A stretch of DNA of 64,000 nt from positions 1 through 64,000 of the forward strand of contig CABXSY010000003.1 in NCBI GenBank assembly GCA_902514875.1, read 5' to 3'. Source of the DNA: an uncultured Alphaproteobacteria bacterium (GTDB lineage Bacteria > Pseudomonadota > Alphaproteobacteria > HIMB59 > GCA-002718135). The translations under genes and the position numbers were made by a program. Below are positions 33,256 through 37,109 of the stretch, piece by piece. Within the stretch, counting starts at the first letter, position 1; each line of letters starts with the position of its first letter. Below the pieces are notes generated by a model. That model did no database searches. It saw nothing but the letters and a program-made list of their open reading frames with translations, and was not told the DNA's origin.

Positions 33256-33284
33256 TTTTGCATATTAATGTTAACGATTATAAT
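33256..33284 (+). promoter_or_regulatory. Possible promoter of the first amt leader
   Basis: A perfect TATAAT lies at 33279-33284. The best -35 match is poor (TTTTGC at 33256-33261, 17-base spacer). Transcription would start near 33291, about 30 bases before the first aptamer. No sigma-54 (GG-N10-GC) element was found here. Confidence 0.35.
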
Positions 33285-33321
33285 CTTACTAAAAATTAAT
33301 ATTAAACTAAGTCAGTATTCA

Positions 33322-33372
33322 CGTTCATCACTCTTTTAGAGTGACGGAAGTAGACGAAAGTCGAAGGAACGC
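33322..33372 (+). promoter_or_regulatory. Glutamine riboswitch (glnA RNA motif), first aptamer of amt copy 1
   Basis: The sequence shows the conserved core of the glutamine-binding glnA RNA: closing stem CGTTC/GAACG, a hairpin CACTC-TTTTA-GAGTG, the invariant-type GACGGAAGTAG, a small GAC-GAAA-GTC hairpin and CGAAGGAACGC. Rfam-type glnA RNAs in cyanobacteria and marine bacteria bind L-glutamine and control nitrogen genes. It precedes an ammonium transporter, as expected. The call is from memory of the consensus. Confidence 0.88.
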
Positions 33373-33389
33373 ATGCAAAGTTATTAAAT

Positions 33390-33440
33390 CGTTCAATTTG
33401 TTGAAAGCAAATCGGAAGTAGGTTTAACCCGAAGGAACGC
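33390..33440 (+). promoter_or_regulatory. Glutamine riboswitch, second aptamer of amt copy 1
   Basis: Second tandem copy 17 bases after the first. It keeps CGTTC/GAACG, the core CGGAAGTAGG and CGAAGGAACGC but has a different first hairpin, ATTTG/CAAAT, and a GGTTTAACC hairpin. The tandem arrangement suggests a sharper response to glutamine. Confidence 0.88.
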
Positions 33441-33484
33441 GGATCTTATTATTTAATTTCCATAGCTAAGCATGAAAAGTAACG

Positions 33485-33505
33485 CATGACTCAATGTGAG
33501 CCATG
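33485..33505 (+). promoter_or_regulatory. Leader hairpin between aptamers and amt copy 1
   Basis: CATGACTCA and TGAGCCATG pair with one A/C mismatch around a 3-base loop. The equivalent leader at 35523 has a 9-bp hairpin with compensatory changes at two positions, so the RNA structure appears to be kept. It lies between the second aptamer and the GGAGG site at 33524-33528 and is a candidate expression platform. TCCAT at 33459-33463 could pair with ATGGA at 33522-33526 over the ribosome site. Confidence 0.6.
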
Positions 33506-33532
33506 TACTGTGAAATTTATAATGGAGGATTA

Positions 33533-34819
33533 ATGTTAAAAAAATCTATATATTTCATTAGCATTCTTGCTGTCTTTATGCTCTTCAGTTCATATGCAAG
33601 AGCCGAAGTAGACGGTGAAGTGCAATACATTTTAAATACATTCCTATTTCTTGTATCTGGGTTCTTAGTCATGTGGATGGCAGCAGGATTTGCAATGCTT
33701 GAATCAGGACTTGTTACGTCTAAAAGTGTAGCAACAATTGCTGCAAAAAATATAGGCTTATATTCGATAGCTGGTTTAATGTTTTGGTTAGTTGGATATA
33801 ATATGGCATACGGCATTCCTGCAGGTGGCTTTATTGGATCTCCAATTCCTTGGAGTGATGGTAGCTCTCTTGATACAGGTTATTCAGATGGTTCTGACTG
33901 GTTCTTTCAGATGGTATTTTGTGCAACAACTTGTTCAATCGTATCTGGAACACTAGCTGAAAGAATCAAGATTTGGCCATTTTTTATTTTTTGTGCTTTA
34001 TTAACTGGGTTCATTTATCCAATCGAAATGGGTTGGCAGTGGGGCGGAGGATACTTAGCGGAAGCAGGTTTCTCAGATTTTGCTGGTTCAACTCTAGTTC
34101 ACAGTGCAGGAGCAGCCGCAGCACTTGCTGGTGCGATTTTGTTAGGCCCAAGACTGGGACGTTTTACTGATAGTGGTGAAGCAAGTCCAATGGAACCTTT
34201 TGCAAATTCTTCAATACCTCTTGCAACTCTTGGTGTATTTATCCTGTGGCTTGGATGGTTCGGATTTAACGGTGGATCACAATTAGCTATGGGTACATTT
34301 GATGATGTTACTGCAGTAGCAACAATATATATCAATACTAACTTGGCAGCTGGAGCAGGTGTAATGGCTTGTGCAGTAATCTCAAGATTAGCAACTGGTA
34401 AAACTGATGTTGTGATGATGCTTAATGGTGCATTAGGTGGTTTAGTAGCAATTACTGCAGAACCATTAGCTCCTTCCCCATTCTTAGCAGTAATCATTGG
34501 TGCTATAGGCGGATTAATTGTCTTCTACGGAACAAGACTTTTAATTTCTTTTAAAATTGATGACGTTGTAGGAGCTATTCCAGTACACGGTTTTGCTGGA
34601 ATTTTTGGAACATTAGTTGTTCCTATTTCAAATAGCGCAGCAAGTTTTGGTGCACAACTTTATGGGATAATAGCAATTAACGTTTTCGTTTTTGTTGTAT
34701 CATTTATCATTTGGTACATCATGAAAATGCTGTTTGGTATTAGAATCAGTGAAGAAGCTGAAAAACTTGGTACTGATAAATCTGAAGTAGGTGTAATGGC
34801 TTACAGCATCAGAGACTAA
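33533..34819 (+). CDS. amt: Ammonium transporter (Amt), copy 1
   Basis: Inner-membrane ammonium channel, 428 residues with a cleavable signal (cut after ARA, residue 24) and eleven helices. The twin pore His residues are in STLVHSAG and AIPVHGFAG; WLGWFGFNGGSQLA is the usual Amt block. An in-frame ATG at 33503 lies inside a leader hairpin and has no ribosome site; ATG 33533 has GGAGG five bases upstream and gives the same length as copy 2. No glnK is adjacent. Expression is probably set by glutamine through the tandem riboswitches. Confidence 0.95.
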   Translation: MLKKSIYFISILAVFMLFSSYARAEVDGEVQYILNTFLFLVSGFLVMWMAAGFAMLESGLVTSKSVATIAAKNIGLYSIAGLMFWLVGYNMAYGIPAGGFIGSPIPWSDGSSLDTGYSDGSDWFFQMVFCATTCSIVSGTLAERIKIWPFFIFCALLTGFIYPIEMGWQWGGGYLAEAGFSDFAGSTLVHSAGAAAALAGAILLGPRLGRFTDSGEASPMEPFANSSIPLATLGVFILWLGWFGFNGGSQLAMGTFDDVTAVATIYINTNLAAGAGVMACAVISRLATGKTDVVMMLNGALGGLVAITAEPLAPSPFLAVIIGAIGGLIVFYGTRLLISFKIDDVVGAIPVHGFAGIFGTLVVPISNSAASFGAQLYGIIAINVFVFVVSFIIWYIMKMLFGIRISEEAEKLGTDKSEVGVMAYSIRD

Positions 34820-34824
34820 TGAAT

Positions 34825-34889
34825 TTAGTGATTAGCACATCAACTCCTTATAGTTGGTCACTAAAAAATGGGAGAGCATTTGCTCTCCC
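34825..34889 (+). terminator. Two consecutive hairpins after amt copy 1
   Basis: TTAGTGA (34825-34831) pairs with TCACTAA (34858-34864), enclosing CAACT/AGTTG. Next, GGGAGAGCA (34870-34878) pairs with TGCTCTCCC (34881-34889). The second stem is strong, but AAATTTG follows rather than a T-run, so it is not a textbook terminator on this strand. Its 3' arm CTCCCA can instead pair with TGGGAG at 34907-34912, the ribosome site of the next gene. Confidence 0.5.
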
Positions 34890-34918
34890 AAATTTGTTAA
34901 AACAAGTGGGAGGGTTAA

Positions 34919-35293
34919 ATGACTGAAACAGAAATTATAAAAGAAAAAAAAAGAAACATCTATTCAAGTTTTTTTGCAGAAGATTACGTCTCAAAGTTTT
35001 TATTTAAATCAATATTACACCATGTTATTTCTCTAGAAATATATGAAAATAACAAATTAAATGGAATTTCTTTTGAAACAATTTGTGCAAATGTACCTAA
35101 GTCAATTGGCTCTAGATCATCTATTCAATCGATTTTAAACGAAGCATTAGAAAAAAATATTTTTGTTAAAGAACAAAATCAATCTGATAAACGGATTAAA
35201 AATTACTATTTAAGCAATAATTTTCTTGATAAGATAAATGGATGGTTAAAAAAAGAGGGTACTTTTTTTAATAAAATGATTTTAGAAAATTAA
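34919..35293 (+). CDS. Small winged-helix (MarR-like) DNA-binding protein
   Basis: A 124-residue protein not tied to a named family. Residues about 45-85 look like a winged helix: a helix-turn-helix (ISFETICANVPKSIGSRSSIQ, with the recognition helix IQSILNEALEKN) followed by a wing KEQNQSDKRIKNYYLS, the SDKR pattern being typical of MarR-type wings. GGGAGGG precedes the ATG. It lies between the two amt genes where glnK is often found, so a role in nitrogen control is plausible but unproven. Confidence 0.72.
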   Translation: MTETEIIKEKKRNIYSSFFAEDYVSKFLFKSILHHVISLEIYENNKLNGISFETICANVPKSIGSRSSIQSILNEALEKNIFVKEQNQSDKRIKNYYLSNNFLDKINGWLKKEGTFFNKMILEN

Positions 35294-35326
35294 TTATATT
35301 TTAATAATTAAATTTAATACTATTTG

Positions 35327-35354
35327 TTGATACTTTTCGAATTATAGTTATAAC
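35327..35354 (+). promoter_or_regulatory. Sigma-70-type promoter of the second amt leader
   Basis: TTGATA (35327-35332), a 16-base spacer and TATAAC (35349-35354). Transcription would start near 35361, right at the first base of the riboswitch leader. Confidence 0.55.
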
Positions 35355-35362
35355 TCTTATCA

Positions 35363-35413
35363 CGTTCATCACTGTTTTAGAGTGACGGAAGTAGACGAAA
35401 GTCGAAGGAACGC
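35363..35413 (+). promoter_or_regulatory. Glutamine riboswitch, first aptamer of amt copy 2
   Basis: Differs from the first aptamer of copy 1 by a single base in the variable hairpin (CTG for CTC at the CACTG/GAGTG stem). The core GACGGAAGTAG and CGAAGGAACGC are identical. Confidence 0.88.
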
Positions 35414-35430
35414 ATGCAAAGTTATTAAAT

Positions 35431-35480
35431 CGTTCAATTTGCAGTTTGCAAATCGGAAGTAGGTATACCCGAAGGAACGC
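35431..35480 (+). promoter_or_regulatory. Glutamine riboswitch, second aptamer of amt copy 2
   Basis: Tandem partner of the preceding aptamer. Closing stem CGTTC/GAACG, hairpin arms around ATTTGCAGTTTGCAAAT, core CGGAAGTAGG, small hairpin GGTATACC and CGAAGGAACGC. The loop sequences differ from copy 1 while the stems remain paired. Confidence 0.88.
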
Positions 35481-35522
35481 GGATCTTATTAATTAATTTC
35501 CATAGCTAAGCATGAAGTAATG

Positions 35523-35543
35523 CATAACTAAAGGTTAGTTATG
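35523..35543 (+). promoter_or_regulatory. Leader hairpin before amt copy 2
   Basis: CATAACTAA (35523-35531) pairs perfectly with TTAGTTATG (35535-35543) around AGG. Compared with copy 1, a G-C pair became A-T and a C-G pair became A-T. TCCATA at 35499-35504 can pair with TATGGA at 35558-35563, which overlaps the GGAG ribosome site. Confidence 0.6.
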
Positions 35544-35571
35544 TATTTATAATTTTATATGGAGTTAAATA

Positions 35572-36858
35572 ATGTATAAAAAATTTTTAAGTCTTTTTAC
35601 AATTTTCTCTTTTATTTTGTTGTTAAGTTCAACTGTGAGAGCAGAGGTAGACGCTGAAGTAGCATATATATTTAATACATTCTCTTTTTTAGTATGTGGA
35701 TTTTTAGTCATGTGGATGGCTGCAGGATTTCTATTTTTAGAATCAGGCCTTGTTACAACGAGAAGTGTATCAACTATTGCTGCTAAAAATATTGGAAAGT
35801 TCGCAATTGTTTCAATTGTTTTCTATTTAATTGGATATAATCTTGGATATTCTGTCCCTGAAGGAGGCTATGTTGGAACACCATCTATATGGACTGATAA
35901 TTCATCTATGGAAACAGGTTACTCAGATGCTTCAGACTGGTTTTTTCAAGCTTTATTTGTTTGTGCTACTGTTTCTATTGTATCTGGTGCTGTTGCAGAG
36001 CGAATAAAAATTTGGCCTTTCTTTACTTTTGCGGCAATTCTTGGAGGAGTAATTTATCCAATTCAAATGGGTTGGGAATGGGGTGGAGGATGGTTAGACG
36101 CCCTAGGATTTGCAGATTTCGCTGGCTCAACATTAGTGCACGCTTGTGGTGGTTCTGCAGCTTTAGCAGGAGTAATTCTTTTAGGTCCAAGACTTGGAAG
36201 ATTTAGTTCGAGTGGAGAACCAGCTAATATGGCTCCATTTGCTCCATCATCAATTCCTTTAGTTACATTAGGAACATTTATTTTATGGATGGGTTGGTAT
36301 GGTTTTAATGGCGGATCACAACTTGCATTAGGTTCTTATGAAGATGCAACAGCAATGTCTAAAATTTTCATGAACACTCAACTTGCTGCTTGCGGTGGAT
36401 GTATGGCTGGTGCAGCAATAACAAGATTAATTGGTGGAAAAACTGATATTGTCATGATGCTTAATGGAGCTCTGGCAGGTTTAGTGTCAATAACAGCTGA
36501 GCCATTAATGCCTAGTCCATTGCTTGCTATTGGAATAGGAGCAGTTGGTGGAGTAATAATGTATTATGGAACTAACTTCTTAAATTCATTAAAATTAGAT
36601 GATGTTGTTGGGGCAATACCAGTACATATGTTTGCTGGTATTTGGGGAACATTGGTTGTCCCTTTAACTAATCCTGATGCATCATACTCAATTCAGTTAT
36701 TAGGTGTTGGATCAGTGTGTATCTTTGTTTTTGTTTTCTCATATATTGTAATATATTTAATTAAAAATATTATGGGATTACGAATTAGTAAAGAAGCTGA
36801 AAAACTTGGAACTGATAAAGCTGAGGTTGGAGTCATAGCTTATTCAATAAGAGATTAA
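35572..36858 (+). CDS. amt: Ammonium transporter (Amt), copy 2
   Basis: Second 428-residue ammonium channel, clearly paralogous to copy 1. Signal peptide cut after VRA (residue 24), pore His residues in STLVHACG and AIPVHMFAG, Amt block WMGWYGFNGGSQLA. The cytoplasmic tail AEKLGTDKAEVGV(I)AYSIRD is almost the same as in copy 1, while several membrane segments differ (extra Cys in HACGG and AACGGCMAG). It has its own promoter and riboswitch leader, so the two copies can be controlled separately. Confidence 0.95.
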   Translation: MYKKFLSLFTIFSFILLLSSTVRAEVDAEVAYIFNTFSFLVCGFLVMWMAAGFLFLESGLVTTRSVSTIAAKNIGKFAIVSIVFYLIGYNLGYSVPEGGYVGTPSIWTDNSSMETGYSDASDWFFQALFVCATVSIVSGAVAERIKIWPFFTFAAILGGVIYPIQMGWEWGGGWLDALGFADFAGSTLVHACGGSAALAGVILLGPRLGRFSSSGEPANMAPFAPSSIPLVTLGTFILWMGWYGFNGGSQLALGSYEDATAMSKIFMNTQLAACGGCMAGAAITRLIGGKTDIVMMLNGALAGLVSITAEPLMPSPLLAIGIGAVGGVIMYYGTNFLNSLKLDDVVGAIPVHMFAGIWGTLVVPLTNPDASYSIQLLGVGSVCIFVFVFSYIVIYLIKNIMGLRISKEAEKLGTDKAEVGVIAYSIRD

Positions 36859-36917: not shown

Positions 36918-37109
36918 ATGAAAACATCATTTATGATCAGTGGAAAGAAGCATTTTTTGAAATATGAAAGAAAAATGCCTGAAAAAGAAGTACTTAAAAT
37001 GAAATCATTTGTGACTAATAAAGGTATTAAGCTTGCAAAAACTGCAAAGTTTAAAATAAAAAAAGTTTTAGAAAAAGATAAGGAAAGAGTTTTTGATATT
37101 ATTTTATAA
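36918..37109 (+). CDS. Small lysine-rich hypothetical protein
   Basis: A 63-residue basic protein (Lys-rich throughout, for example KKHFLKYERKMPEKEVLKMK), no membrane helix, no Cys. The ribosome site AAGGAGG at ideal spacing argues for real translation. It ends at the base before the convergent yqgE stop. I do not recognise a family. Its position after the riboswitch-amt unit suggests co-expression with amt copy 2. Confidence 0.6.
   Translation: MKTSFMISGKKHFLKYERKMPEKEVLKMKSFVTNKGIKLAKTAKFKIKKVLEKDKERVFDIIL

Follow-up and report, generated by a model that had tools for sequence, protein, structure and literature searches.

Analysis of the leaders of two paralogous ammonium transporter genes in a stretch of 64,000 nucleotides (the window) indicates that each leader is probably a single riboswitch, in which two glutamine-I aptamers share one translational expression platform and are coupled by a predicted long-range helix, PX. 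The anatomy of these leaders, namely a linker of 17-18 nt, a shared conserved element and one start site, supports the prediction of a cooperative-type unit, and we infer glutamine binding, cooperativity and translational control. To date, glutamine doublets have been classed as serial switches that act independently. Should PX prove real, these leaders would represent another natural design, besides that of glycine, which couples two aptamers of the same class to one output.

A cmscan search with Rfam over the entire window produced exactly four RNA-family matches at gathering level, all of them to the glutamine-I (glnA) riboswitch RF01739 (cut-off 35 bits; E-values of 1.3e-11 to 1.8e-9; 55.4-63.2 bits). 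On the forward strand, aptamers 1 and 2 of the amtA leader occupy positions 33320..33375 (63.2 bits) and 33388..33443 (58.1 bits), while those of the amtB leader occupy 35361..35416 (63.2 bits) and 35429..35483 (55.4 bits). The doublets are spaced 2,041 bases apart, one ahead of each Amt gene. The conserved core (CGGAAGUA and GAAGGAACGC) and helices P1-P3 are present in all four model alignments, with non-standard pairs confined to P3 of the second aptamers, and no other known RNA family was matched in the leader, even at E<=1. The genes amtA (33533..34819, forward strand, ATG at 33533) and amtB (35572..36858, forward strand, ATG at 35572) encode PF00909 proteins (E-values of 6.7e-98 and 1.9e-95) that are 65% identical. 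The first-pass annotation had proposed four glnA-type aptamers in two near-identical pairs upstream of paralogous ammonium transporters; the covariance-model matches lie at the places it claimed, the genes are indeed paralogous transporters, and the two leaders share 94% identity across the aptamers, the linker and 30 nt beyond, differing in P2, the P2 loop and P3. What is new beyond that annotation is the linker-to-downstream pairing, the putative anti-Shine-Dalgarno (anti-SD) element, and the regulon members glnA and CP-ATP-grasp.

Tandem glutamine riboswitches and ammonium-transporter targets have been reported previously (PMC2864571), and the present elements share with RF01739 the aptamer sequence and structure, the nitrogen-gene targets and the tandem occurrence. 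They occupy the 5' UTR of nitrogen-metabolism genes, amt twice in the window and glnA elsewhere in the same genome. Upstream of the first leader lies a promoter-like TTTGCA-16-TATAAT (33257-33284), a type of site that is no more frequent here than in shuffled sequence. A gene of 124 residues (34919-35293), with a weak SarA/Rot match below cut-off, separates amtA from the second leader, and a small ORF of 63 residues without a Pfam match (36918-37106) is located 3' of amtB.

The inter-aptamer linker (CATGCAAAGTTATTAAAT in the amtA leader, 33372..33389; 35413..35430 in the amtB leader; both on the forward strand) is conserved in the leaders of three gene classes, amt, glnA and CP-ATP-grasp. It measures 16-18 nt (17 or 18 nt in nearly all leaders with PX) and has a near-fixed sequence in each class, with CATGC and AGTTAT separated by one to three bases and followed by A/T. 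The element 3' of aptamer 2 reads TTTCCATAGCTAAGCATGA in the amt and most ATP-grasp leaders and TTTCATAACTAGAGCATGA in glnA leaders, and the linker is complementary to it in two blocks, CAUGC:GCAUG and AUA[G/A]CU with AGUUAU. In the amtA leader, the predicted 5' strands of PX are CATGC (33372-33376) and AGTTAT (33379-33384), and the 3' strands (33462..33474) are ATAGCT (33462-33467) and GCATG (33470-33474); in the amtB leader, the corresponding strands are located at 35413-35417, 35420-35425, 35502-35507 and 35510-35514 (3' strands 35502..35514), all on the forward strand. Aptamer 2 would lie inside the predicted helix, which would start at the first nucleotide past P1 of aptamer 1 and adjoin that aptamer; the internal loop of PX varies in size by gene class (1x2, 2x2 or 3x3).

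In duplex tests against shuffled downstream sequence, all 72 distinct leaders paired the linker with the downstream element at p<=0.02, with a median p of 0.005 and a mean energy of -11.1 kcal/mol, these leaders being mutually related and the tests not independent of one another. Of 83 unrelated tandem leaders, the same threshold was reached by 15% of the viral ones (n=61) and 5% of the others (n=22), and PX was judged absent from the SAR86 and viral tandem leaders. Both PX strands are absent from the single-aptamer amt leaders of divergent genomes. The CAUGC:GCAUG half is paired at every position in 71 distinct leaders, a CGUGC variant being retained through a G-U pair, while the second block shows few exceptions. 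The changes within PX are all one-sided, with no two-sided compensatory change, so that covariation lends PX limited support. Its conservation could reflect another constraint: part of CAUGC, the C and the AU after it, is shared with the 3' flank of the aptamer in general, and in published structures of the bound aptamer the nucleotide that follows P1 is engaged in a long-range pair. A protein or small RNA that binds both the linker and the post-aptamer element would fit their near-invariance and the one-sided changes, leaving the complementarity incidental. We regard this as unlikely, as two separate blocks are complementary in matching order in 72 of 72 leaders, G-U pairs are tolerated, and the five leaders of a glnA subgroup with the linker AGUUUGAA re-pair in a different manner. 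A small hairpin adjoining PX, GGA[X]...[Y]UCC, is weakly supported: X-Y is A-U or U-A in a subset of leaders, and most amt leaders carry a U-U mismatch there.

The arrangement may also be read as two independent riboswitches in series, a pseudo-cooperative design under which 157 glutamine doublets and four triplets have been filed (PMC9481103). That definition requires an aptamer and an expression platform in each unit, however, and the leaders provide neither space nor signal for a platform between the aptamers: no terminator-like site lies there on the coding strand, nor any start site or ribosome-binding site, and a linker of 16-18 nt leaves no room for them. Furthermore, the linker is connected with the sequence 3' of aptamer 2 through a conserved element, which argues against independent units. 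A series of separate switches is, therefore, unlikely, and the lack of a second platform together with the PX pairing favours one cooperative-type unit. The tandem glycine riboswitch also combines two close homologous aptamers with a single platform (PMC9481103), but its ligand class and fold are different, and in the present leaders coupling would run via a helix enclosing aptamer 2. The SAR86 and viral doublets likewise comprise two tandem RF01739-type aptamers; in contrast to the leaders described here, their linkers are mostly 6-11 or 22-25 nt long and lack PX complementarity, and their SD hairpin often begins directly after P1. Three consecutive glutamine aptamers, with linkers of 7 and 24 nt, occur in three SAR86 or related records (L128, L140 and L191). 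In the literature searched, which did not include the original papers of Ames and Breaker, Ren et al. and Klahn et al., no description came up of an inter-aptamer helix that is conserved, or an anti-SD that is shared, among amt, glnA and a CP-ATP-grasp gene.

The putative expression platform follows the second aptamer. In the amtA leader, a candidate anti-SD (TTTCCATA, 33457..33464, forward strand) overlaps PX by 3 nt and is complementary to ATGGAG at 33522-33527, which overlaps the Shine-Dalgarno sequence GGAGG (33524..33528, forward strand); in the amtB leader, TTTCCATA (35497..35504, forward strand) is complementary to TATGGAG at 35558-35564, which includes GGAG (35561..35564, forward strand). 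Across the amt leaders, UUUCCAUA shows complementarity to the [U]AUGGAG found around the SD, whereas in glnA leaders AUUUCAUA is complementary to UAUGAAAU at the start codon, a target that is also under constraint from the Met-Lys protein start. Each of these two classes pairs best with its own start site (amt, -7.2 versus -6.0 and -5.7 kcal/mol; glnA, -8.0 versus -5.1 and -4.5 kcal/mol); against shuffles the amt anti-SD is modest (median p 0.21). The pairing energies of the CP-ATP-grasp leaders were not best within their class, and the anti-SD is not convincing there. Between the post-aptamer element and the SD lies a spacer hairpin, H (33485..33505 in amtA and 35519..35547 in amtB, both on the forward strand), whose fold is kept while its sequence changes from class to class (mean z -2.5 in amt, -2.8 in glnA and -4.1 in ATP-grasp leaders). 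H is followed by the SD at a near-constant distance, and the spacing from aptamer 2 to the start codon is near-constant in amt and glnA leaders. The aptamers, the fixed linker length, the PX complementarity, H and the class-specific anti-SD complementarity of amt and glnA can all be read from the sequence.

Other candidates for regulatory features found no support. The amt leaders have no U-tract after H that would indicate a transcription terminator; a conserved upstream peptide starting at GCAUGA is not tenable because the reading frames differ among leaders; and sequestration of the anti-SD by the unbound aptamer core (GGAAGU:AUUUCC) is unsupported, occurring at 0-17% in folding ensembles.

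In the proposed mechanism, the linker would pair with the element just 3' of aptamer 2 to form PX, which the folding of either aptamer should stabilise, providing a simple route to cooperative binding. Because aptamer 2 lies within PX and P1 of aptamer 1 directly precedes it, ligand binding by each aptamer should promote the same helix, and it is on this basis that a cooperative unit is proposed. The steep glutamine response suggested by the first-pass annotation would be plausible for such a tandem unit. The long-range pair that terminates P1 of the bound aptamer involves the nucleotide that follows P1, which in these leaders is the first C of CAUGC, so that PX and aptamer 1 would touch at the ligand site. 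The glutamine ligand is located at the end of P1, which is terminated by a long-range pair (PMC6698751). The 3' strand of PX overlaps the anti-SD or anti-start by three nucleotides (AUA), so that the state of PX would decide whether the anti-SD can pair with the ribosome-binding site, with the variable hairpin H spacing the anti-SD from the start site.

The sign of the response depends on how this overlap is used. In a nested model, PX and the anti-SD helix would be mutually exclusive, aptamer folding would favour PX, and the start would open, leading to activation; in a pseudoknot version, which repression would require, the two helices could coexist, with PX presenting the anti-SD to the SD. 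We lean slightly towards repression by glutamine, with activation not far behind, because activation of glnA and amt would constitute positive feedback in which low glutamine means low glnA and amt, leaving glnA starved at low glutamine. This is only a lean since nested folding of 132 leaders points to the opposite sign: when the aptamers are forced, PX is predicted to increase and anti-SD pairing to decrease in both amt and glnA. Indeed, an ON switch of the same architecture, in which glutamine folds the aptamers, PX and the GGA...UCC hairpin lock the anti-SD, and the start opens, would have every helix nested and compatible with the folded aptamers. In glnA leaders, modelled start-codon opening starts at 0.10 and reaches 0.41 when both aptamers are forced, or 0.64 when only aptamer 1 is, and in amt leaders the number of anti-SD:SD pairs drops from 2.56 to 0.16 with the aptamers forced; the SD of the amt leaders, however, is hardly altered in the model (0.33 to 0.34). 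Cases have also been cited of glnA RNAs that lower expression under nitrogen depletion (PMC2864571), and glutamine-II, a related element, acts as an ON switch (PMC6698751). Altogether, we give the ON switch somewhat less than an even chance. More tentatively still, we propose a true cooperative two-aptamer glutamine riboswitch in which a conserved long-range helix couples the aptamers and may combine with the anti-SD helix into an H-type pseudoknot, the whole serving as a shared module for a nitrogen regulon in a lineage where RpoN was not detected.

The copy-number comparison in related genomes that the first-pass annotation had raised gave RF01739 matches in 36 of 37 same-genus genomes, almost always in pairs, and the pairs in the window are hence not due to chance. 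The genome itself (78% complete) contains a third doublet between glnB and glnA, and the most complete relative (96%) contains eight aptamers, whose spacing indicates four doublets. The loci retrieved from the genus fall into amt, glnA and CP-ATP-grasp classes, plus a divergent amt that has only one aptamer; genus-wide, the complete leaders of the first three are all doublets with a linker of 16-18 nt. The CP-ATP-grasp gene encodes a circularly permuted ATP-grasp protein of 468 residues (PF14403, E-value of 4.9e-153). Its function is uncertain, and in L043 (594-2251) and relatives the tandem leader is accompanied by a small ORF upstream of the gene, the end of which coincides with or adjoins the start codon. 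The glnA doublet of the present genome (L037, G000:C17:9088-9598, minus strand) lies approximately 60 nt past the glnB stop codon, and the divergent amt of some relatives (L039, L062, L107 and L111) has a different leader, with one aptamer and without PX strands. Among 385 genomes sampled from the class, the remaining matches are single aptamers from one family only, which precede the CP-ATP-grasp gene in both loci readable in coding orientation (L356 and L357).

RF01739 was matched in none of 24 sister-family genomes; in genomes of that family an amt gene adjoins a P-II gene. A search for RpoN (PF04552) in 13 genomes from the genus and the sister family (including G000 and G220) detected it in none, while it was found in four control genomes. 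Each of the ten genus genomes checked has a single P-II gene, mostly adjoining the glnA leader. Taken together, these observations suggest that part of nitrogen control may have passed to the riboswitch. If PX is real, it would help to explain the joint control of ammonium uptake and glutamine synthetase in a small-genome marine group without detected RpoN. The genus also carries a protein of approximately 450 residues with a sigma-54-activator domain, despite the lack of a detected RpoN.

The first-pass annotation had further proposed that two leader-gene units allow independent dosing. The analysis gave no support for this. The leaders appear to be kept alike: amt leaders from the same genome resemble each other more than randomly paired ones (p = 0.013), which suggests gene conversion. 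In one genome (L086) the two amt leaders are identical. Across the leaders of the window (33320-33475 and 35361-35515) and those of L086, L047 and L065, the pairs are either identical or have aptamer 1 in common, while the transporters differ.
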